From IMG/VR virus record IMGVR_UViG_3300042691_030319, positions 1-27,724 of that record: DNA of 27,724 nucleotides; one strand, 5' to 3'. This document shows positions 5,139-23,759 of this stretch, in pieces (position 1 is the first letter of the stretch; every line of letters starts with the position of its first letter). The notes under the pieces were generated by a model. It was not told where the DNA came from. It saw nothing but the letters and a program-made list of their open reading frames with translations, and ran no database searches. This stretch comes from a virus. The position numbers and the translations under genes are program-made.

Positions 5139-6439
5139 TGGAACACGAGCGCGTCACCGTCAACCTTCCCAAGTTGACGCCGCACCAGCACACGATCTTC
5201 TTTGACGCATCCCGCATCGTTGTCTGTGACGGGTCCACCAAGAGCGGTAAGACGGTATCGGCTCTGACATGGCAGGCGGCACAGTGCTTCGGGACCGGCG
5301 CCGGTAAAGCCCATCTCTGGGTGGCATCCGTCTACCCGCAGGCCAAGATCGCATTCGACCGCATGTGCCGGTGGATGAGCAAGGCGGACCCGACGAAACG
5401 AATCTGGACCGACAATAAGTCGGAACTGTGCATCGCGTTTCACAACGGCTCGCGGTGGTTCTTCAAGGGCAGCGATAACCCAGACAGCATCTACGGTGCC
5501 GACTACTACAGCGTCGTTGTGGACGAGGCCAGCCGTTGCAAGGAAGAAGCCTGGCACGCGGTGCGGTCCACCACGACGGCGACGAAGGGACCAATCAGGA
5601 TCATCGGCAACGTCAAGGGGCGTGCGAACTGGGCGTACAAACTCGGCATGATGGCGAAGCAGGGCACGCCCGGTATCGCCTACTACGTCCGCACCGCAAT
5701 GGACGCCATCGCAGACGGGGTGACAAATCCCGAGGAAGTCGAGGACGCCAAGCGGGTACTGCCCGAACACGTCTTCAAGGAACTCTACCTGTGCGAGCCA
5801 AGCGAGGACGGGGCCAACCCCTTTGGCTTGTCGCACATCCGCGCGTGCATCCGCACGATGTCGTCAAAGCCGCCGGTCTGCTTCGGTGCCGACTTAGGAA
5901 ACGCTCAGGACTACACCGTCATCGTGGGGTTGGATGAGGACGGGGCGACGTGTTTCTTTGAGCGGTGGCACAAGCTGGGTTGGGAACTGACGACGGAGAA
6001 GCTGGCGAAGATCATCGGCGAACTGCCCGCGATGGTGGACGAGGCTGGCGTGGGTTCGCCGGTTGTCGATCGTCTGCGGCGTGTGTGCCCGAATGTCGAA
6101 GGGTTCCAGACCGGCGCGAAGAAACAAATGCTGTTGGAAGGGCTGTGCATGTCCATCCAGCAACGGACGATCGCATACCCCCCGAACAGCCCCGAGTGTC
6201 AGATACAAAGCGAACTGGAAGCGTACGAGTACGAGGTAGGGCGAACGGGCCGCGTGTCGTATTCGGCACCTGCTGGCCTGCACGACGACTGCGTAATAGC
6301 CCTTGCCCTTGCTGCCCTGCGGCATGACCGCGTGAAGGTGGCGGGCCAGATCAAAGTTGAATGGGTGGGACTCGGCAAGGAAGACCGGGACATCTGGGAT
6401 TCCATGTCGGCGGGCGAGTGGGAAGAAAGGCTAGCGTGA
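5138..6439 (+). CDS. terL: Terminase large subunit (packaging ATPase/nuclease), 433 aa
   Basis: This is the motor that pumps DNA into the prohead and cuts it. The ATPase half has Walker A GSTKSGKT at residues 32-39, Walker B hydrophobics plus D129-E130 (VVVDEA), and a coupling motif near IIGNVKG. The nuclease half has an RNase H-like fold: first acidic residue D252 in 'FGADLGNAQDYTV' and the C-terminal pair in 'LHDDCVIALALA' (D383-D384). The length is normal for short TerL proteins. It overlaps the upstream candidate small subunit by one base and the downstream methyltransferase by TGATG. Start ATG 5138 is the only one that keeps the N-terminal 'LTPHQ' segment. Confidence 0.95.
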   Translation: MEHERVTVNLPKLTPHQHTIFFDASRIVVCDGSTKSGKTVSALTWQAAQCFGTGAGKAHLWVASVYPQAKIAFDRMCRWMSKADPTKRIWTDNKSELCIAFHNGSRWFFKGSDNPDSIYGADYYSVVVDEASRCKEEAWHAVRSTTTATKGPIRIIGNVKGRANWAYKLGMMAKQGTPGIAYYVRTAMDAIADGVTNPEEVEDAKRVLPEHVFKELYLCEPSEDGANPFGLSHIRACIRTMSSKPPVCFGADLGNAQDYTVIVGLDEDGATCFFERWHKLGWELTTEKLAKIIGELPAMVDEAGVGSPVVDRLRRVCPNVEGFQTGAKKQMLLEGLCMSIQQRTIAYPPNSPECQIQSELEAYEYEVGRTGRVSYSAPAGLHDDCVIALALAALRHDRVKVAGQIKVEWVGLGKEDRDIWDSMSAGEWEERLA

Positions 6440-7686
6440 TGTGGGAGGTAAGGCACGGAGACTGCCTCGATGTTCTACGCGCGATGCCGGACGCAAGCGT
6501 TGACGCGGTTGTGACAGACCCGCCCTACGGCCTGTCGTTCATGGGCAAGAAGTGGGATTACGACGTGCCGGGTACGGACGTGTGGGCGGAATGTCTGCGG
6601 GTACTGAAACCGGGCGGGCACCTGCTCGCGTTCGCAGGCACGCGGACGCAGCACCGGATGTGCGTGCGGATCGAGGACGCGGGGTTTGAGATTCGGGACA
6701 TGATTGCGTGGGTATACGGATCGGGGTTTCCGAAGTCGCACGACGTGAGCAAGGCGATTGATAAGACGGCGGGGGCGGAGCGGGAAGTGGTTGGTTTCAA
6801 GAAGGCCGGAATGGGCACCGGAAAGACATTCGGCATGCTTCAGTCGGAAGGCCAGAACCACAGGGCTTCGGCCACGATCCCGGCCACGATCCCGGCCACG
6901 ATCCCGGCCCGCCAGTGGTCCGGCTGGGGCACCGCCCTCAAGCCCGCAATGGAGCCGATCACCGTCGCCCGCAAACCCCTCACCGGCACCGTTGCCGAGA
7001 ACGTGCAGGAGTGGGGGACGGGGGCATTGAATATCGACGGCACGCGAATCGGCACGCGAACGGCATCGACCGGCGAGGTTGTTTCTCAGAATGTGGCAAT
7101 GTCCGGTGCGAACTACGGGCGCATTCCTGTCGGCACAACCATCGGAAGATGGCCCGCGAACCTAATCCACGACGGCAGCGATGAAGTGGTGGCGGGGTTT
7201 CCGCAGACGACGAGCGGCGTTGGCGGACATCCGCAAAGCAACAACAGGACCGGCCATGCTGGGCTTGTTGGGTTGAATGGTTCTGGAACCAAAATAGGTC
7301 ACGGCGACTCCGGCTCCGCATCCCGCTTCTTCTACTGCGCGAAGGCGAGCAAGGCGGACCGCGAGGACGGCGTGGCGGGCGTGGCGGGCGTGGCGGGCGT
7401 GGGAGCATTGCGAGACGGCGGGCGCGAAAGCAAGCCACGAAAGAACCACCACCCCACCGTCAAGCCCACCGCCCTCATGCAGTACCTCTGCCGCCTAGTC
7501 ACCCCACCGGGCGGCACCGTGCTTGATCCGTTCACCGGCTCCGGCAGCACCGGAAAGGCCGCGATACTCGAAGGCTTCAACTTCATCGGCATCGAACGCG
7601 AGGCCGAGTACGTGAAGATTGCACGGGCGCGAATCTTGCACGCCGAATCCAAGCACTCCGAAACATTGGTATCCCATGCCATCTAA
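6439..7686 (+). CDS. Phage DNA N4-cytosine/N6-adenine methyltransferase, 415 aa
   Basis: It transfers methyl from S-adenosylmethionine to an exocyclic amino group in DNA. Catalytic motif IV is DPPY at residues 27-30 (VVTDPPYGLSF), and the SAM-binding motif is LDPFTGSGSTG at 362-372. Motif IV before motif I makes it a beta-class enzyme of the N6_N4_Mtase family. 'VLKPGGHLLAF' follows motif IV, and 'NHHPTVKP' precedes motif I, as in many phage members. The start is ATG 6439, overlapping the terL stop; GTG 6436 is an alternative. A hypervariable middle carries two in-frame tandem repeats (ATIP and GVA units). It sits between terL and portal. Protection from host restriction or marking of packaged DNA is likely. 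Confidence 0.92.
   Translation: MWEVRHGDCLDVLRAMPDASVDAVVTDPPYGLSFMGKKWDYDVPGTDVWAECLRVLKPGGHLLAFAGTRTQHRMCVRIEDAGFEIRDMIAWVYGSGFPKSHDVSKAIDKTAGAEREVVGFKKAGMGTGKTFGMLQSEGQNHRASATIPATIPATIPARQWSGWGTALKPAMEPITVARKPLTGTVAENVQEWGTGALNIDGTRIGTRTASTGEVVSQNVAMSGANYGRIPVGTTIGRWPANLIHDGSDEVVAGFPQTTSGVGGHPQSNNRTGHAGLVGLNGSGTKIGHGDSGSASRFFYCAKASKADREDGVAGVAGVAGVGALRDGGRESKPRKNHHPTVKPTALMQYLCRLVTPPGGTVLDPFTGSGSTGKAAILEGFNFIGIEREAEYVKIARARILHAESKHSETLVSHAI
6871..6909 (+). repeat. Three perfect 12-base tandem repeats inside the methyltransferase gene
   Basis: GCCACGATCCCG occurs three times in a row (6871-6906), followed by another GCC. It encodes Ala-Thr-Ile-Pro three times. The unit length is a multiple of three, so copy-number change keeps the frame. 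Confidence 0.9.
7369..7403 (+). repeat. Three-plus 9-base tandem repeats inside the methyltransferase gene
   Basis: GGCGTGGCG occurs three times (7369-7395) with a partial fourth copy, encoding Gly-Val-Ala repeats between the 'FFYCAKASKADRED' block and 'NHHPTVKP'. It is also frame-neutral and lies in the likely target-recognition or linker region. Confidence 0.9.
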
Positions 7687-10396
7687 GGCACGCGCGAAGC
7701 CGCGCACGATCAAACCCACCGAGGCGTCTGTCGAGTATTCGCTGGCGTACACGCGCCCGCAGGATACGAGCGGCGCACGGTTCACCGTCGCGGGGCGTGC
7801 GGACCTTCTGCTGCCACGCATCAACCAGTGGCTAGAGATTGCCGCGCACGACAACGCGCAGACGTGCGCGGGCGTGCCGTTGCGTCTGTACCGCTCTGCG
7901 AAGGCGTCCGGGCGTGGCAAGCAGTGGGGCGGCGTCAAGGTTGACAAGGCGCGCACGGCGTACCTGAAGGGCGATACGGGCGAGTACCCGAGCCTGAAGG
8001 CGGTCGCGTGGGCTACGCAGGGTGAAGACATCGAAGAGGTCGTTAACGGCGACCTTCTCGCGTTCCTCCGCAGGCCCAACCCGTGGATGAGCGGGCGCGA
8101 CTGGACCTATCTGCGATTCAAGAGCAAGGAAACCGTTGGTAACTCGTTCGCGTGGGTTGCTACCGACGGGCCGGAGCTTGAGGCGTACTTCTTGCCACCG
8201 CAGGGCGTGCGAATCGTCGCGTCGATGGATGAGCCCGTCTCGGCCTACCGCTACTCGCGGATGGGTGACAGGTATTTGGACATCGCCCCCGAGCAGGTGC
8301 AGCATGGCAAGTTCCGGCCCTCGATGCTCGACTGGCGCATCGGCGAGTCGTGGACGCATGGGCTAATCCAGGCTGCCGACGTGTTGCAGGCTGCCGTAGA
8401 CGCTCAGCTCGCACACTGGCGCAACGGTGCCCGCCCCGATTGGCTGCTCACGCTTCCGCAGGGGGCATCGGTCGAGACTCAGAAGTCCATCAAGGCCCAG
8501 ATTCAGAACGAGCATCGAGGCCCGCAGAAGCGCGGCGGGTTCATGGTTGCCCCCGAAGGCACCAACGTACACACGCTCGGCTACGCCCCGAAGGATCGCG
8601 GGTACGAGGCCGAGATGGACTACTACCGCCGCATGATCGACGTTGCGGCGGGGCGGCCCGAGTCGCGTTCCAAGATGAACGACGCGAACAGGGCGTCGGC
8701 ACAGGCAGGCGAGACGCAGTACGCGCGGCAAACGATCCTGCCCCGTCTCAGCAACGACGCGGAAGAGTTGACCGAGTTCCTTCTGCCGTTGTTCGGCCTG
8801 ACCCCCGGCGAGTATTGGCTTGCCTACGACAACCCGGTAGCCGAAGACACGCAGGCCCGCACCGATCGCGTGCAGAAATTGACCAGCTACGGCGTTATGA
8901 CCATCAACGAGGCCCGCGCCCTTGAGGGTCTGGACCCGGTAGACGCTGCGATCGGAGACGTGCTGCGGTATAACGGCCAGCCGTTGGCGGTCGAGACGGA
9001 AGAAGAAGAGGCCGACGACGCGGAAACGGAACCGGGCGAGAACGAGGCGGGCGAAGAAGCCGAGCAGGAAGACGGCATCGACCCGACCGAGGAAGCGACC
9101 AAGCGGGCAACAAAGGCCATCCACGACCTGACGCATAAGGCCGGTTGCGGGTGCTGCACGATCAAGGAATACGACGGCGAAGCGATCGACCCCGCGTTCG
9201 GTGAGATTGCCGAGGACTTTGAGGACGCCGTAGCCGCGTGGATCATCGCCAACTCTGAGAACGCAAGCATCGGCATTGACGGCACCGTGAACGTGGACGA
9301 GTCTGGGCTGGGTGACACGCTTTCTGCGTACATCCTTGCAGCCGTGGGCGTGTCCTTGTTCGGCGTGCTGTTCGGGAAAGTGAACTACGCCAAGCGTGAC
9401 GCGGACGCGGCTGCGGCTGAGATTGATAAAGCGGTCGCACGCTACCGATCCTCGCCGATGAACGAGGCCGACAAGGAAGCTATGCGGCGTTCGGTCGCGG
9501 CGAGCATCAAGCAGCATTGCGAACAGGGCAACGTCGGCAACGTGATTGCGAAGCTGGACGGGGACGCGAAGGAAGTCGCACGCGGCGTTGCTGCGGACGT
9601 GTACCAGTGGGCGGAAACGGACGGCACAGGTAGTGCGGCCCCGGTGATTCAGGCTTCTTACGGCAAGCTCTTGAGCCTCGCCGCGTTGGGTGCGCTGATC
9701 GCGGAACAGGCCCGCCGTGCGCGTGGCTTGGGCGGTGCGGCCAACCGTTACGCCCGGCGTGTCGCGTCTGGCATGGCGAACACGCAGCGCACGCTTATCA
9801 CCAGCGCCGTCGTAGCGGCCCAGGCTGGCGGCGTGCCGTTGGATGCGGCTCTCATGTCCGCCCGTTCGTCTGCGGCTGAGTCGGCTTCCTATCGCTCCGT
9901 AGCCGTTGCCCGCACTGAGATTGCCGCCACCGACAACTACACCAATATCTGGGCGTACTCCGCTGGCGGTCGCGTCGAAGGCGTGGAATGGGTTCTGTCT
10001 GCGGTCCCGTGCCAAGCGTGCATTCTGCTCGCCATCGACACGGCACAGGCCAATGGGTCAATGGACCCCGTAGCCGCTGCCGGATTCCGCCAACAGGCCG
10101 AGGCGATCGGACCCGGTTACAACGACAACACCAAGCCGCAGTTGGCCGCGCTGGGTGCGTCCATCATGGCATCTGGTGCCAACTTCACCGTGCCGCTGGG
10201 CCGGGCGTTCGGTCAACCGGGCCAAGCGTTCGGGAACATCGACGTAGACGACGACGCGGCGGCACGCCATATGGCATGGCTGCAAGCCGCTGGACAGGCT
10301 GACGGGCGACAGGCTGGCACGTTCGAGTACGGCATCCACGCCCCGCCGCTGCACCCCAATTGCAACTGCTCTATCCGGCCCGTCTTCCGAGCCTAA
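7676..10396 (+). CDS. Portal protein fused to a MuF-like head morphogenesis domain, 906 aa
   Basis: The N-terminal ~420 residues match the HK97-type portal plan: 'LLAFLRRPNPWMSGRDW' (typical NP..S..E.. helix region), 'FRPSMLDWRIGESW' and 'EYWLAYDNP'. Portals form the dodecameric DNA channel at one capsid vertex. A Glu/Asp-rich linker (about 438-475) and a Cys cluster CGCC (491-494) follow. The C-terminal ~215 residues look like Mu gpF (MuF): Ala-rich helices, 'AVARTEIAATDNYTNIWAY', then 'PCQACILL' and 'HPNCNCSIRP' as likely metal-binding Cys/His. Portal-MuF fusions are known but uncommon. ATG 7676 is chosen because it overlaps the methyltransferase end by 11 bases and gives MPSKARAKP; no SD is visible. 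Confidence 0.85.
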   Translation: MPSKARAKPRTIKPTEASVEYSLAYTRPQDTSGARFTVAGRADLLLPRINQWLEIAAHDNAQTCAGVPLRLYRSAKASGRGKQWGGVKVDKARTAYLKGDTGEYPSLKAVAWATQGEDIEEVVNGDLLAFLRRPNPWMSGRDWTYLRFKSKETVGNSFAWVATDGPELEAYFLPPQGVRIVASMDEPVSAYRYSRMGDRYLDIAPEQVQHGKFRPSMLDWRIGESWTHGLIQAADVLQAAVDAQLAHWRNGARPDWLLTLPQGASVETQKSIKAQIQNEHRGPQKRGGFMVAPEGTNVHTLGYAPKDRGYEAEMDYYRRMIDVAAGRPESRSKMNDANRASAQAGETQYARQTILPRLSNDAEELTEFLLPLFGLTPGEYWLAYDNPVAEDTQARTDRVQKLTSYGVMTINEARALEGLDPVDAAIGDVLRYNGQPLAVETEEEEADDAETEPGENEAGEEAEQEDGIDPTEEATKRATKAIHDLTHKAGCGCCTIKEYDGEAIDPAFGEIAEDFEDAVAAWIIANSENASIGIDGTVNVDESGLGDTLSAYILAAVGVSLFGVLFGKVNYAKRDADAAAAEIDKAVARYRSSPMNEADKEAMRRSVAASIKQHCEQGNVGNVIAKLDGDAKEVARGVAADVYQWAETDGTGSAAPVIQASYGKLLSLAALGALIAEQARRARGLGGAANRYARRVASGMANTQRTLITSAVVAAQAGGVPLDAALMSARSSAAESASYRSVAVARTEIAATDNYTNIWAYSAGGRVEGVEWVLSAVPCQACILLAIDTAQANGSMDPVAAAGFRQQAEAIGPGYNDNTKPQLAALGASIMASGANFTVPLGRAFGQPGQAFGNIDVDDDAAARHMAWLQAAGQADGRQAGTFEYGIHAPPLHPNCNCSIRPVFRA

Positions 10397-11230: not shown

Positions 11231-12640
11231 ATGAATCGCAAGCAACTGCTCGCAGCCTTGACCGCTGCGGGCTACACCGGCAAGGCTGACCTCGCCGACA
11301 TCAAGCAGTATCTCGCCAACGAAGGCCGAGATTCCGACAGCATCACCATCAACGACGAGACGTACAAGATTGACGACGTGTTCGCTAAGGCTGCTCCCCT
11401 GAGCGCCAAGGTGGACGCCGAAGCCGATGAGCCTGTCATCGTCAAGCCCACCAAGAAGGCGTCCACCGGCTACGCCAACACCGTTGGCAAGGTCGAGAGC
11501 AAGGGCGTGATTGGCGCTCCTGCGATCCGTTCGGATCGTGAACGCGCTGTCAAGGCGTACACCGCCCGCGCCCGCAACCAGTCGGCTGATACGCCCATCG
11601 AGAAGCGCGCTATTTGGGAGGACGGCGAAACCGCCGAAGCCTTCACCGCGTTCTTCCGTCTGGCGACCTGCCCGAACAGCGTCGGCTACTCGCAGAAGGC
11701 GACCGACCTGGAAATCATCGGCAAGGCCAATGTTGAGTTCGACAACACCCTCGGCGGCGCGACCGTTCCGCAGCAGTTCTCGAACCAGCTCATCTGGTTG
11801 ACTGAGCAGTACGGCGTTGCCCTCAAGGTCGCTTCGGTCGAGCGCATGACCAGCGACGTTGGCAACTTCCCGCGTCAGACCGTTATTCAGCCCATGACCC
11901 CCTCGGCGGAAGGTGCGGCCAAGTCCACGGCCGACGACACCTTCGACAGCGTGACCCTCACCTGCCGCGAGGCCTCGCTTATCAAGCAGGCTTCGTATCA
12001 GTGGTACGAGGATTCGGCTGTCAACGTCGGCGATACGTTCGCCCGCAACTTCGCCGAGTCTGCCGCCCGCCGCATCGACCTGGATTACTTCCTCGGCGAC
12101 GGCACCAGCGCCTACAACAACTTCATTGGCCTCAAGACGAAGCTGGGCACGTCGGGCAACAAGTACGTGCAGGCCACCGGCGGCGCGTGGTCGAGCTGGA
12201 CCTCCGCAGACTTCAACAAGGCTCTTGGCCGGTTGGAGTACGTCAATTCGGCCCGCCTCCGCATGATCGGTTCGCGTCAGAACTTCTACGCGGCTCCCAA
12301 TCGCCTCCAGACCAACACGAATCAGTTCTCGCAGTTGGTCGGACCCGGCGTTGAAGGCGCTGACAAGTCGTTCCTTTCGCTCCCGTACCACTTTGCGCAG
12401 GTTCTTTGGGAAAGCCAGACGGCTCCCGAAACCACCGGCGCAACCCCTGGCGTGTTCATCGGCGACTTTGCTGGCGGCAGCAAGATCGGCCTCCGCGATG
12501 AACTGAAGATCATGTACAGCGAGCATTACGGCTTTGCCAACGGCCTTCTGGCGTGGCGCGGCACGATGCGGTACGCGATCAACATCCACCTTGACGGTCG
12601 CGCTGCGACCTACGGCCCGATCCTCGCCCTCGGTAACTAA
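11231..12640 (+). CDS. Major capsid protein, HK97 fold, 469 aa
   Basis: It forms the icosahedral shell. Residues 1 to about 170 are a long charged N-terminal region suitable as a scaffolding delta domain removed by the upstream protease, beginning MNRKQLLAALTAAGYTGK. The mature part starts near 'NVEFDNTLGGATVPQQFSNQ', the typical HK97 entry segment (GG..VP..f...i). It continues through E-loop and spine-helix like stretches ('SAARRIDLDYFLGDGTS', with the common 'D..fl.G.G' pattern). P-domain and A-domain strands include 'FIGDFAGGSKIGLRDELKIMYSEH', which matches the common 'GDf..g..i..r..l.i' block. The size fits a capsid with an N-terminal delta domain. It follows the protease and a structured leader. 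Confidence 0.88.
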   Translation: MNRKQLLAALTAAGYTGKADLADIKQYLANEGRDSDSITINDETYKIDDVFAKAAPLSAKVDAEADEPVIVKPTKKASTGYANTVGKVESKGVIGAPAIRSDRERAVKAYTARARNQSADTPIEKRAIWEDGETAEAFTAFFRLATCPNSVGYSQKATDLEIIGKANVEFDNTLGGATVPQQFSNQLIWLTEQYGVALKVASVERMTSDVGNFPRQTVIQPMTPSAEGAAKSTADDTFDSVTLTCREASLIKQASYQWYEDSAVNVGDTFARNFAESAARRIDLDYFLGDGTSAYNNFIGLKTKLGTSGNKYVQATGGAWSSWTSADFNKALGRLEYVNSARLRMIGSRQNFYAAPNRLQTNTNQFSQLVGPGVEGADKSFLSLPYHFAQVLWESQTAPETTGATPGVFIGDFAGGSKIGLRDELKIMYSEHYGFANGLLAWRGTMRYAINIHLDGRAATYGPILALGN

Positions 12641-12677: not shown

Positions 12678-13145
12678 ATGCTTTTCGGACAGAACGAGAA
12701 CATCCAAGTCCTTCGCCTTGCGACGAGCGCCGCGACCAACGCGACCGCTTCGTCCGCTGCGATGGACATGAACGGCTACAAGGCGGGCAAGATTTACGTT
12801 CTTGCTGCCGCCGCGTCTGCCACCAACGCCAGCGCTAAGTTCGATTCGTTGACTCTGGAATACTCCAGCGCATCGAACGCGGGCTGGGTGACCCAGTTCC
12901 AGGGCACCACCAACACCTCGACCACGAACACCTCGCAGTTCGTGATTGCGGGCAACAACAACACGAGCTTGAACTACATCGCGGAGTTCAACTTCGTGCC
13001 CCGTGATCGCTACTACCGCGTCGTTGTGCAGGGTCCGACTGGTTACAACACGACCAGCGTTATCGGCTTTGGCTTCCGCGCTGACGAAATCCCGTCCACG
13101 GCTGCCGAGGCTGGCGTCGTCACTCGCGTGACCGCTGCCGGATAA
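12678..13145 (+). CDS. Candidate head decoration or capsid-associated protein, 155 aa
   Basis: It directly follows the capsid gene and is Ala/Ser/Thr/Asn-rich with beta strands (GKIYVLAAAAS; FDSLTLEYSSASNAGWV; RDRYYRVVVQGPTGYNTTSV), consistent with a small beta-sandwich on the capsid surface. The start ATG 12678 has the SD GGAGGAG (12663-12669). A 5-bp hairpin (12652-12664) overlaps the first bases of that SD and could tune its use. It has several Asn-Thr-Ser-rich loops that would be plausible glycan acceptors, relevant because a glycosyltransferase gene follows. The family is not recognised; the call comes from position and composition. Confidence 0.55.
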   Translation: MLFGQNENIQVLRLATSAATNATASSAAMDMNGYKAGKIYVLAAAASATNASAKFDSLTLEYSSASNAGWVTQFQGTTNTSTTNTSQFVIAGNNNTSLNYIAEFNFVPRDRYYRVVVQGPTGYNTTSVIGFGFRADEIPSTAAEAGVVTRVTAAG

Positions 13146-13180: not shown

Positions 13181-13201
13181 ATTTCTCGCAAAGGAGGAAT
13201 C

Positions 13202-15004
13202 GTGGATTATCGCACAAAGGTTGCGCCGGAGTTTCGTTGGCTTATCGCACACGAGGATGGGTGGCAGTTCGGCGAGCGTGGCGTTCTGGCCCGCGTCGTC
13301 TCTGCCCTGCACGACCAGCCGAAAACGTGTGTGGAGTTCGGGGCTGGTGATGGGCTGCGTCTGCCGGTCCTGACTGGACCCCTGATTGACGCCGGGTGGA
13401 AGGCTCGGCTGATTGAGGAAGACACGGAGGCTGCGAAGGCGCTGGCGAACCGCTACCCGTCTGCGGAAGTGGTTGCGCAGCGTGTCACGCCCGAGACGAT
13501 CGACGTAGTAGACAAGGCGTTTGCCGAACCGCCCACGCTTGTGGTGATTGACGTTGACGCGAATGACCTTGACTTGGCGCTGGCGATCAAGACGAAGCCC
13601 GCCGCGCTCCTGATTGAACATTGGGACGAGGGCGACGACAACAACCCGCGTACGGCGGCTCGACCCGTCCGCGTTGGCGAGAGGACCGACCGCGAGTTCA
13701 CGAAGCAGGCAAACAGCGTTGCCGTAGCCGAGAGCATGGCGGCGGCTGGCTACGTTCCGGTCTGGGTTGGGCGGGTCAACGGCCTGTATGTCCGCAGCGA
13801 CCTTGCTGGCCGATTGGAGCGCAAGCGAACGCCCGCAGGCAAAGACCCGATCCGGCTGAACATCGGATCATACGACATCACGATCGACGGCTTCACGAAC
13901 ATCGACCGCAACAACGGAACGGAGGCGTACCCGCTCGACTACGACGATGCCAGCGTTGATGAGATTCGGGCCTCGCACATCCTCGAACACTTCTCGCACA
14001 CGCAGACGCAGGACGTTCTCAACGAGTGGGTGCGGGTGCTGAAGCCCGGTGGACGCATCCGGATTGCCGTGCCCGACTTCGGCAAGTTGGTGGAGGTCTA
14101 CGACGGCAAGCGGGTGTCCGAGTTCGGCGTGCAGAACGTGACCTTTGGCGGGCAGACCGACGCGAACGACTACCACAAGTCGATGTTCGATTACGGCGGC
14201 TTGTTCGTGATGATGCAACGGGCGGGGCTGGTTGGCATCGACCGATGGAAGGCAGACGTACCGAACGAGTGTGCATCCCTGTCGGTGTCGCTGAATCTTG
14301 AGGGCTACAAGCCGTCTCTGAACCTTCAGGAAATGTCACGGAAGACGCGGGCGGTCATGAGCGTGCCCCGCATTCTGTTCACCGACACGGCCCGATGCTG
14401 TGAAGAGGTCTTCCGCAGACACCAAATCCCGTGGGACATGGAAACGGGCGCGTTCTGGGGGCAGTGCCTTGAGCGTGCGATGGACCGCATCGCCAACCGC
14501 AACGACGGGACAGAGTTCATCCTTGCGGTGGACTATGACACGATCTTTGATTCCAACGTCCTCGGGCGGCTGTTCATGCTCATGGATGCCAACCCCGACG
14601 TAGACGCGATTGCTCCGCTCCAGGTTGGTCGCGGGCGTGACTTCATGCTGGTCGCGTCTGACAAAGCGGCTGGCCCGATGGAGTTGATCGGCCCGTTGTT
14701 CGATGCGACGATGGCGCACTTTGGATGCACGCTCATCCGCGTGTCGGCCCTGAAGAAGATGCCGCATCCGTGGTTCTGGGCACAGCCGAACGCTGAGAAC
14801 AAGTGGGGCGAGGGCCGCACCGACGACGACATCTATTTCTGGAAGAAGTTCCGCGAGGTTGGCAATCGTCTGTGCGTTGCAACCCGCGTGAGCGTCGGGC
14901 ACATCCAAAGCGTGATTAGCTGGCCGACAGAGAACATGCGGGTGCATCACCAGTACATGGACAACTACAACAACTACGGGCCACCGGACGAGCGGCGGCA
15001 GTAG
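13202..15004 (+). CDS. Tri-modular FkbM-like methyltransferase / class I methyltransferase / GT-A glycosyltransferase, 600 aa
   Basis: Three enzyme-like parts are visible. Residues ~1-190 look like an FkbM-type SAM methyltransferase: CVEFGAGDG (43-51, SAM loop), then 'ARLIEEDTEAAKALANRYP' and 'TLVVIDVDANDLDLALA'. Residues ~215-375 look like a second methyltransferase (Methyltransf_11 type): LNIGS (219-223), 'TNIDRNNG', 'ASHILEHF' and VLKPGG (279-284). Residues ~385-600 look like a GT-A glycosyltransferase: DYD at 444-446 in 'LAVDYDTIF', then 'HFGCTLIRVSALKKM', acidic TDDD ending at D543 and H567 in 'VGHI'. The start is GTG 13202 with SD AAAGGAGG. It lies between capsid and connector genes, so methylated sugar addition to virion proteins is a good hypothesis. 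Strong hairpins flank the gene. Confidence 0.75.
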   Translation: MDYRTKVAPEFRWLIAHEDGWQFGERGVLARVVSALHDQPKTCVEFGAGDGLRLPVLTGPLIDAGWKARLIEEDTEAAKALANRYPSAEVVAQRVTPETIDVVDKAFAEPPTLVVIDVDANDLDLALAIKTKPAALLIEHWDEGDDNNPRTAARPVRVGERTDREFTKQANSVAVAESMAAAGYVPVWVGRVNGLYVRSDLAGRLERKRTPAGKDPIRLNIGSYDITIDGFTNIDRNNGTEAYPLDYDDASVDEIRASHILEHFSHTQTQDVLNEWVRVLKPGGRIRIAVPDFGKLVEVYDGKRVSEFGVQNVTFGGQTDANDYHKSMFDYGGLFVMMQRAGLVGIDRWKADVPNECASLSVSLNLEGYKPSLNLQEMSRKTRAVMSVPRILFTDTARCCEEVFRRHQIPWDMETGAFWGQCLERAMDRIANRNDGTEFILAVDYDTIFDSNVLGRLFMLMDANPDVDAIAPLQVGRGRDFMLVASDKAAGPMELIGPLFDATMAHFGCTLIRVSALKKMPHPWFWAQPNAENKWGEGRTDDDIYFWKKFREVGNRLCVATRVSVGHIQSVISWPTENMRVHHQYMDNYNNYGPPDERRQ

Positions 15005-15086: not shown

Positions 15087-15191
15087 ATGAAACAGAACGC
15101 AAAAAACAAGAAGGTCAAACCGGACAAGATCAAGAACAAGGGCACGCCCCGCGTCCTGATTGCGACCGCAGGCACCACGAAAGCCGCGTAA
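15087..15191 (+). CDS. Tiny basic peptide, 34 aa
   Basis: ATG 15087 to TAA 15189-15191 encodes a very Lys-rich peptide beginning MKQNAKNKKVKPDKIKNKG and ending with an Ala/Thr tail. It sits just after the GAAA-tetraloop hairpin and 3 bases before the connector gene. No domain can be assigned. A basic peptide next to head genes could bind packaged DNA or nucleate assembly, or the frame could be a translated leader that couples ribosomes into the connector gene. There is no good SD apart from the GGGTT/hairpin region. Confidence 0.4.
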   Translation: MKQNAKNKKVKPDKIKNKGTPRVLIATAGTTKAA

Positions 15192-15194
15192 CCA

Positions 15195-15836
15195 ATGGCA
15201 CTTATAACGAGCAGCGAGTACAAGGTTTATAGCGGTATCAGCGATACCTCATTCGATGCGTTCCTCGCCGTCGCTGTTCCGGCGGTGCAGGAAACCATTG
15301 AATCGCTGTGTGGCCGATCCGCAGGCGGTTTCGAGTCCGCATCGTGGACCGAAACCTTTAGCGGTGCCGAGACGCCGTGCAAGTATCTACGCAATTGGCC
15401 GGTCACGGCTATTGCGTCGGTGTCGTTCGTTGACGCGGACGGCACGTCATCGACGCTGGATTCGTCGCGGTACGCGATCGACCCCAGCGGGCGTGCGGTC
15501 TGTATGACCGGCTCGATGATGGGCCGGGCGCTCATGGCAACGGACGGCAGCTTTGAGGGGTACTTCGCCCCCAACCAGACCGGCGTGCGTCCGCAGTTCC
15601 TTGAGGGCATGAAGAACTACACGGTGACGTACACGGGCGGGTACTCGACCGTTCCGTCCCGGCTCAAGTGGGTCTGCTACCGGATGCTTGATCAGATGAT
15701 CGCAGACCGTCGCGTGCCCGGTGACCTGAAGTCTGAGAGCATCGGCGACTATTCGTACACGAAAGAGGCTGCGGCGGGCCTTATCTCGCAGGAAGTGCGG
15801 GACCGCCTGCAAGAGTGGATTGTGAGTGTGGCATGA
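15195..15836 (+). CDS. Head-tail connector (gp6-like adaptor), 213 aa
   Basis: Adaptor proteins bind beneath the portal and start the neck. The N-terminus (MALITSSEYKVYSGISDTSF) followed by 'FLAVAVPAVQETIESLCGR' is the usual helix pair of HK97 gp6-like/phage head-tail connector proteins. 'ETFSGAETPCKYLRNWPVTAIASV' matches their 'e.f.g....l.L...pi..i.sv' beta block. 'YTVTYTGGYSTVPSRLKWVCYRML' matches the 'v.Y.gGy..vP..lk.a......' block that closes the family. The length is typical. It overlaps the next gene by ATGA. Confidence 0.85.
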   Translation: MALITSSEYKVYSGISDTSFDAFLAVAVPAVQETIESLCGRSAGGFESASWTETFSGAETPCKYLRNWPVTAIASVSFVDADGTSSTLDSSRYAIDPSGRAVCMTGSMMGRALMATDGSFEGYFAPNQTGVRPQFLEGMKNYTVTYTGGYSTVPSRLKWVCYRMLDQMIADRRVPGDLKSESIGDYSYTKEAAAGLISQEVRDRLQEWIVSVA

Positions 15837-22702: not shown

Positions 22703-22956
22703 TGTGCGGTTGCCAGTCCAACATCGACCCCGCGACCCGCGCGGCACTGGCCCTGTACGGACTCCCGTACCGGGACGGCATCGTGACGTGGCTCGGCATC
22801 GACTGGTACGGCGTGCCCTACCCGCTCCGGCTGTGGGTTATCGCGTGGCGCGTGCTGGTCGTGACTAGTCGCGGCGAGACGATGGAGATTCCCGACCCGT
22901 CCGTGTTCTCTGGATGCGGCTGCATCAAGCGGCTAAAGGATTGGGTGAACCCGTGA
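22702..22956 (+). CDS. Small Cys-rich, Trp-rich protein, 84 aa
   Basis: The product has mirrored cysteine pairs at its ends: MCGC at the start and 'FSGCGCIKRLKDW' near the C-terminus. Between them is a Trp/Tyr/Leu-rich amphipathic region (GIDWYGVPYPLRLWVIAWRV). The two CxC pairs suggest metal binding or oligomer disulfides. It overlaps the upstream TAA by one base and the downstream GTG by 4 bases, so it is tightly coupled between the Cys-rich tail protein and the glycosidase-like gene. A tail-tip plug or chaperone role is possible but not supported by homology I can recall. Confidence 0.55.
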   Translation: MCGCQSNIDPATRAALALYGLPYRDGIVTWLGIDWYGVPYPLRLWVIAWRVLVVTSRGETMEIPDPSVFSGCGCIKRLKDWVNP

Positions 22957-23759
22957 ACCTGTACGATTGTCTATTCGGCAAAGGACGCCCGTGGAAGCCC
23001 TGCGAGCCGTTCCCCGGCATGAAGCCGGTCCTCGTGGACGGGCAACGGTTCTACGCGGTCAAGCCCAACACGGGCGGGGCACGCGACCTGTCGCGGTTTG
23101 ATCCTGCCGAGGCTGCCAAGTGGCCGAAGCTGTGCCCGCGTGCCCTCGTGGTTGCGGACATCGAGAGCCGACACGACGACGACGAACACCGCGAGTTGCA
23201 TACGGACGTGCGGCTGTATCCGGGCCGTGCCGTTGACGCGGACCTTGAGTTTGTGAACCGCATTATCAACGCGGTTCGCTCCGGCATCACCGACCAATCT
23301 GTCGGCCTGTACGGGACACTCCCCACCGGATACAACGTCTTCAACGCCGTACTGTTGAAGGACTGGACCGAACTCAAACGGGCCTGTGCCGCGAACGACT
23401 ACATCGCCGCCCAGATCGGCGAGAACCTAGACGCCCTGCACCCGTCGCTGTACGTCAACTCGAAAGACGAATCGGCATGGGTCCAGTTCGCCGCGTGGCA
23501 GGTGCAAGAGTGCCGCCGTATCGCGCGTGCGGTTCACATGGCGTACCCGATCATCCCGTTCATCTCGCCCGAGATTCACCCGAGCGCGGGCGGCGGGCTA
23601 ATCCCGATGACGTTCTGGAAGAAGCAGATTCGCACGCTGATGGAACTCGGCTGCGACGGTGCTGTTCTCTGGTGCAGCCAGGATCACCCGGCAGATTCGA
23701 TGGTCCCGTACGCATCGGCGGCGGTTGTCACGGTTGGCACGGAGAGAAGCGGCGACTAG
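22953..23759 (+). CDS. TIM-barrel glycoside-hydrolase-like protein, 268 aa
   Basis: Start GTG 22953 overlaps the upstream stop. A strand ending in D69-I-E71 ('RALVVADIESR') matches the D-x-E acid pair at the end of a barrel strand in several glycosidases (GH56 hyaluronidase-like and GH25-like). It is followed by 'SVGLYGTLPTGYN', 'LDALHPSLYVN', 'AYPIIPFISPEIHP' and 'GCDGAVLWCSQD', which read like successive barrel strands of such enzymes. It could cut peptidoglycan as an endolysin or virion lysin, or a host surface glycan. No amidase- or lysozyme-type endolysin is otherwise visible in the window, which raises its value as the lysin candidate. The exact family is uncertain. Confidence 0.5.
   Translation: MNLYDCLFGKGRPWKPCEPFPGMKPVLVDGQRFYAVKPNTGGARDLSRFDPAEAAKWPKLCPRALVVADIESRHDDDEHRELHTDVRLYPGRAVDADLEFVNRIINAVRSGITDQSVGLYGTLPTGYNVFNAVLLKDWTELKRACAANDYIAAQIGENLDALHPSLYVNSKDESAWVQFAAWQVQECRRIARAVHMAYPIIPFISPEIHPSAGGGLIPMTFWKKQIRTLMELGCDGAVLWCSQDHPADSMVPYASAAVVTVGTERSGD

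Follow-up and report, generated by a model that had tools for sequence, protein, structure and literature searches.

The window, by which we mean the whole analysed stretch of 27,724 nucleotides, contains an intact open reading frame of 600 codons on the plus strand (13202-15004) that encodes a fused protein of 600 amino acids. It begins with a GTG codon, and the Shine-Dalgarno sequence AAAGGAGG (13190-13197, plus strand) ends 4 nt upstream of this start, in agreement with the strong ribosome-binding site that a previous sequence-only reading had assigned to the gene. The genes located upstream code for a terminase, a DNA methyltransferase, a portal protein, a protease-like protein, an HK97-fold major capsid protein (11231-12640, plus strand; PF05065, 2.8e-21) and a small Ser/Thr/Asn-rich protein (12678-13145, plus strand), here called dec. 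Downstream follow the genes for a head-tail adaptor (15195-15836, plus strand; phrog_442, 3e-25), which forms the downstream border of the slot occupied by the fused gene, head closure and neck proteins. The capsid, Ser/Thr/Asn-rich and neck genes that had been named as neighbours were thus all recovered. The DNA methyltransferase gene (6361-7686; phrog_67, 1.4e-80) is situated between the terminase and portal genes and overlaps both, and about 200 bp of it share 75-78% identity with DNA methylase genes of mycobacteriophages. A small open reading frame for a Lys-rich protein of 34 amino acids (MKQNAKNKKVKPDKIKNKG...; 15087-15191) lies in the gap that separates the fused gene from the adaptor gene, and a protein of 281 amino acids encoded further downstream (22914-23756), perhaps tail related, showed weak similarity to the hyaluronidase family PF01630 (21.7 bits, cut-off 23.2).

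The protein encoded by dec is predicted to adopt a jelly-roll fold (pLDDT 78). Its fold matches included the BPP-1 cement protein (3j4u_H, Z 7.7), 8cjz (Z 7.3) and 7dou (Z 7.0), and the phage cement proteins among them, from BPP-1, Carin1 and KHP40 (Z 7 to 7.7), were mixed with unrelated jelly rolls that reached Z 9.0. Because of this mixture, dec is only a probable head decoration protein, as suggested by the model and by synteny.

Compared with its counterpart in a relative that is 98% identical (L001), the fused gene shows 88 synonymous and 10 nonsynonymous differences, which corresponds to a dN/dS of 0.03 and argues that the gene is real. The ratios for the individual domains are 0.043, 0.042 and 0.014 from the N- to the C-terminus, and each of the three domains is under purifying selection. 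An AlphaFold2 model of the protein, built with 37 sequences, contains three folded domains (mean pLDDT 82.6), all of them soluble, and nothing beyond these. Searches of solved structures by sequence, using the full profile, returned a single weak methyltransferase match, but structural comparison of the model matched two methyltransferase folds followed by a GT-A glycosyltransferase fold. The structure prediction thereby bears out the proposed fusion of two methyltransferase-like modules with a GT-A module, which we refer to as MT1, MT2 and GT.

The GT domain (residues 380-590; 14339-14971, plus strand) is most similar in fold, over residues 380-588, to A197 of STIV (2c0n; Z 18.9, rmsd 2.5, 176 residues aligned), followed by mimivirus R699 (Z 15.6) and human COLGALT1 (Z 14.5). 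The DxD-type signature that had been read from the sequence corresponds to the motif DYD (residues 444-446; 14531-14539, plus strand), in which D444 and D446 are invariant in an alignment of 37 rows. In the same alignment, D541, D543, F546 and W547 in and after the late acidic motif TDDD (residues 540-543; 14819-14830, plus strand) are invariant, and so are G566 and H567 (His567 at 14900-14902, plus strand), the latter a likely ligand of the metal or the donor. The motif D[YF]D[ST] is present in 167 of 169 family members. The GT2-type Pfam families PF00535 and PF13632 gave no match above the curated cut-off for the window, and two relatives were also below these cut-offs (26.1 versus 27 for PF13632 in L003, and 20.1 versus 23.3 for PF00535 in L004).

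MT1 (residues 20-205; 13259-13816, plus strand) is an FkbM-like methyltransferase domain, as identified from its fold, homologues and alignment, with fibrillarin-type methyltransferases as fold matches over residues 20-204 (Z 13.8). Its motif I, CVEFGAGDG (residues 43-51; 13328-13354, plus strand), retains the GxGxG-like SAM-binding loop, and G47 and G51 are invariant in the MT1 alignment. Two homologues in this alignment (L105 and L143) exceed the cut-off for the FkbM family (PF05050) in the Pfam search, whereas MT1 of the window does not reach that model, and the sequence search of solved structures gave nothing useful for MT1. Among the members of the FkbM family are sugar O-methyltransferases, for instance NoeI. 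MT2 (residues 212-372; 13835-14317, plus strand) is a short class I methyltransferase domain that matches PF08241 (1.6e-7; 32.3 bits, cut-off 21.2) and phrog_6636 (6e-9), and its fold matches, over residues 213-372, are CgnL (7pd7, Z 13.4) and 3dli (Z 12.9).

A search of uncultured-phage and viral contigs with the GT alignment identified 401 related stretches, of which 80 were kept; with the results of later scans pooled in, 169 distinct GT proteins of the family were examined. Most have the architecture MT2-GT (118), followed by GT alone (30), MT3-GT (13; e.g., L004), in which MT3 is another methyltransferase, and MT1-MT2-GT (5), with single cases of GT-MT2-MT1 (L118), MT2-MT1-GT (L097) and GT-MT2; these counts vary with the HMM thresholds, some of the open reading frames are partial, and some of those scored as GT alone bear a decayed MT2 region. 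MT1 and MT3 are also found as separate genes adjoining the GT gene, as in loci where an MT1 gene (L092, L094, L103) or an MT3 gene (L002) accompanies an MT2-GT gene, and in L107 an N-terminal sulfotransferase domain (PF00685; 26.6 bits, cut-off 22) is fused to MT2-GT. One locus carries a second, stand-alone copy of GT downstream of an MT3-GT fusion (L071, 7183-7956). In the group L011-L060, there are members in which MT2 has no recognisable SAM motifs while GT is intact, a pseudo-methyltransferase subfamily (e.g., L013, 4094-5221; L031, 1628-2710). Among 50,697 phage records (cultured phages), the tested GT members had MT2-like matches but no GT-domain match, and the dec and capsid queries had no relatives. 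The sequence-only reading had been framed around actinobacteriophages, which is unsupported: the four relatives located in metagenome-assembled genomes come from bins of the Phycisphaerae (two), Coriobacteriia and Gammaproteobacteria, so that phages of this family may infect Planctomycetes, Actinobacteria or Proteobacteria.

The surroundings of GT are conserved across these relatives. In every one of the 75 loci that had 1 kb or more of upstream sequence, a dec gene was located within 2.5 kb upstream of GT, mostly as the immediately preceding gene, and the adaptor gene was located downstream in 71 of 73 testable loci. The slot in between also contains other genes for sugar synthesis and tailoring: GDP-mannose 4,6-dehydratase (GMD) genes in L125, L126, L133-135, L137, L145 and L156 (TIGR01472 in L126: 540.8 bits, cut-off 415), GDP-fucose synthase-like (Fcl) genes in L126 and L155, sulfotransferase genes in L092, L101, L106, L108, L132, L152 and L262, and an adenylyltransferase-like gene in L101, L106 and L262. 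A few genes of these types were found outside the slot (L054, L094, L144). In L126, GMD, Fcl, MT2-GT and FkbM-like MT1 genes occur in a single run, which would in effect lead all the way from GDP-mannose to a deoxyhexose bearing a methyl group. No GMD gene was found in the window; in the relatives with GMD or Fcl the donor is likely to be a GDP-6-deoxyhexose of the fucose type. A locus that is negative for the GT family (L261) has in its slot an open reading frame of 255 amino acids (9348-10115) that appears by eye to be another glycosyltransferase, with no Pfam or NCBIfam match. Judged by its gene content, the slot is a cassette in which modules are fused in varied orders, split, swapped or joined by sugar and sulfotransferase genes, and this composition, in which the fused and split arrangements count as Rosetta-stone evidence, strongly supports a predicted role in the building and tailoring of glycans.

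The position of GT beside dec and capsid genes leads us to infer a head protein as the acceptor, with dec and the capsid protein as the candidates. A scan based on the capsid protein, in which loci with at least 3 kb of downstream sequence were counted, yielded 25 loci with both dec and GT, 15 with dec only, one with neither and one with GT only. In the latter (L265), dec is reduced to a C-terminal remnant (5272-5483) while GT is retained, which may be an assembly or sequencing artefact. The link is thus one-way: GT is almost always accompanied by dec, the pattern expected if the acceptor is dec or the capsid protein, and dec also occurs without GT. In eight of the dec-only records GT was absent from the rest of the record, although these records are possibly fragments. 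An obligate pairing, as suggested by a scan based on dec (64 of 64 loci) with a query built from GT-positive loci, is ruled out by the 15 dec-only loci. The capsid and adaptor genes are as constant beside GT as dec is, and the pairwise distances of GT correlate about equally with those of all three, so that this test of coevolution singles out none of them as the acceptor. No conserved Ser, Thr, Asn or Tyr acceptor position was seen in dec. The higher Ser/Thr content of dec in GT-positive loci (0.236 versus 0.207) was set aside because the GT-negative set is nearly a single clade. Six records contain a second, long dec of about 575-585 amino acids (L048, 3799-5556; also L032, L041, L047, L049 and L050), whose dec domain is interrupted by an insert of about 390 amino acids with no Pfam match.

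The explanation that we favour, with moderate confidence, is that the fused protein acts as a soluble glycan enzyme with three modules, which is made together with the head proteins and glycosylates and methylates an acceptor on the head. The GT-A domain, with its DxD metal centre, would take a sugar from a nucleotide donor and attach it to the head acceptor, most likely the adjacent jelly-roll protein dec or the capsid protein. The FkbM-like MT1 would then O-methylate the transferred sugar, although the order of these steps is itself conjectural, and MT2 may either methylate a second position or, given its degenerate SAM loop, function as an acceptor-binding or scaffolding domain.

Two SAM-binding-type loops had been proposed previously, and only the one in MT1 stands. 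Motif I of MT2 (13856-13876, plus strand; LNIGS at residues 219-223) reads LNIGSYD in the window and in L001 rather than LNxGxG; the second glycine is absent and no GxG remains. It is therefore doubtful that both methyltransferases are active, and from the claim that one enzyme builds, attaches and methylates a sugar we retain the three domains and the role in glycan modification, to which the folds, the conserved catalytic residues of GT, the module shuffling and the slot genes point. Chances appear evenly balanced that, within the favoured explanation, GT and MT1 act as proposed while MT2 has lost its catalytic activity and is retained for a structural role or for recognition of the acceptor. 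The loss of the GxG is consistent with a dead MT2, and so are the domain dN/dS of 0.04 and the finding that about 40 of 126 MT2-bearing relatives have neither motif I nor HxLEH in a region that is still fused to GT, although some of these are partial open reading frames. However, the window retains both HxLEH and VLKPGG (residues 279-284), and most relatives keep the second glycine, among them L007, the nearest relative that differs from the window, which reads LNIGGGE.

It is unlikely that the protein instead modifies a glycan on the host surface (capsule, LPS or teichoic acid) and thereby blocks superinfection, with its place in the head region being incidental. Loci for bacterial surface polysaccharides typically contain genes for GMD, Fcl and FkbM-type methyltransferases, which would fit this alternative, but serotype-conversion genes are usually located away from the head region and include membrane proteins, whereas the model contains soluble domains only and the position between dec and the connector genes is constant across very diverse phages. 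Glycosylation of modified bases in the phage DNA is very improbable: virus-encoded glycosyltransferases can modify DNA, according to the statement in PMC12619734 that cites Pyle 2024, but no match to the thymidylate synthase/dCMP-hydroxymethylase family was obtained in 14 of the 15 records searched, which include the window and may be incomplete, and the location among head genes, the fused sugar-tailoring domains and the sulfotransferase fused in one relative argue against it.

Head modification is the preferred reading, and hundreds of relatives in the same spot, some of them beside sugar-making genes, suggest that a head coat of tailored sugars is probably a feature of many phages. There is, in our estimation, about an even chance that these relatives represent a large, undescribed family of uncultured phages with an interchangeable glycan cassette in a fixed slot behind the head-decoration gene. 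On this reading, GT would be combined in the cassette with sulfotransferases, GMD, GDP-fucose synthase and one or another of three methyltransferases, the head would be covered with methylated or sulfated sugars that vary, and the three-domain protein of the window would be the most fused form of the cassette. Virion glycosylation has so far been documented in few phages, and a common cassette of modular tailoring enzymes at one genomic place would make head glycosylation predictable from the sequence. For the genes of GDP-fucose synthesis, sulfotransferases and methyltransferases that occur in viral metagenomes, it would suggest a role other than host metabolism, and it would be the virion, not the host, that is served by related "auxiliary metabolic genes" of these phages.

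In the open-licence literature that was searched, we found no description of the GT family, the fixed slot or the interchangeable tailoring modules, but the kind of system is already known, with mycobacteriophages, STIV A197 and A064R of the chlorovirus PBCV-1 as the closest analogues. In mycobacteriophages, the phage-encoded enzymes Che8 gp110 and Corndog gp38 are required for capsid glycosylation (PMC12363180). A profile comparison of the GT family with Che8 gp110 and gp109 showed no similarity (hhalign probability 0.1 and 0.3 percent), and genes 108-110 of Che8 are located near the genome end and annotated as separate glycosyltransferases, unlike the fused gene of the window. In glycolipids of M. 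tuberculosis, fucose is O-methylated by dedicated methyltransferases (PMC3594219). STIV A197, whose solved structure comes closest in fold to the GT domain, is an essential viral glycosyltransferase suspected to modify the STIV coat protein (PMC10551542), but it is a single-domain protein of an archaeal virus with 14% identity over the aligned part. A064R is a GT-GT-MT fusion of about 640 amino acids that builds and O-methylates the glycan of the major capsid protein, with domain activities shown in vitro (PMC9614988). Compared by description, it resembles the protein of the window in being a single viral protein that fuses glycosyltransferase and methyltransferase domains, and it differs in domain order, in extending a larger N-glycan and in belonging to a virus of eukaryotic algae. 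If our reading is correct, the phage cassette parallels these fused capsid-glycan enzymes of the chloroviruses.
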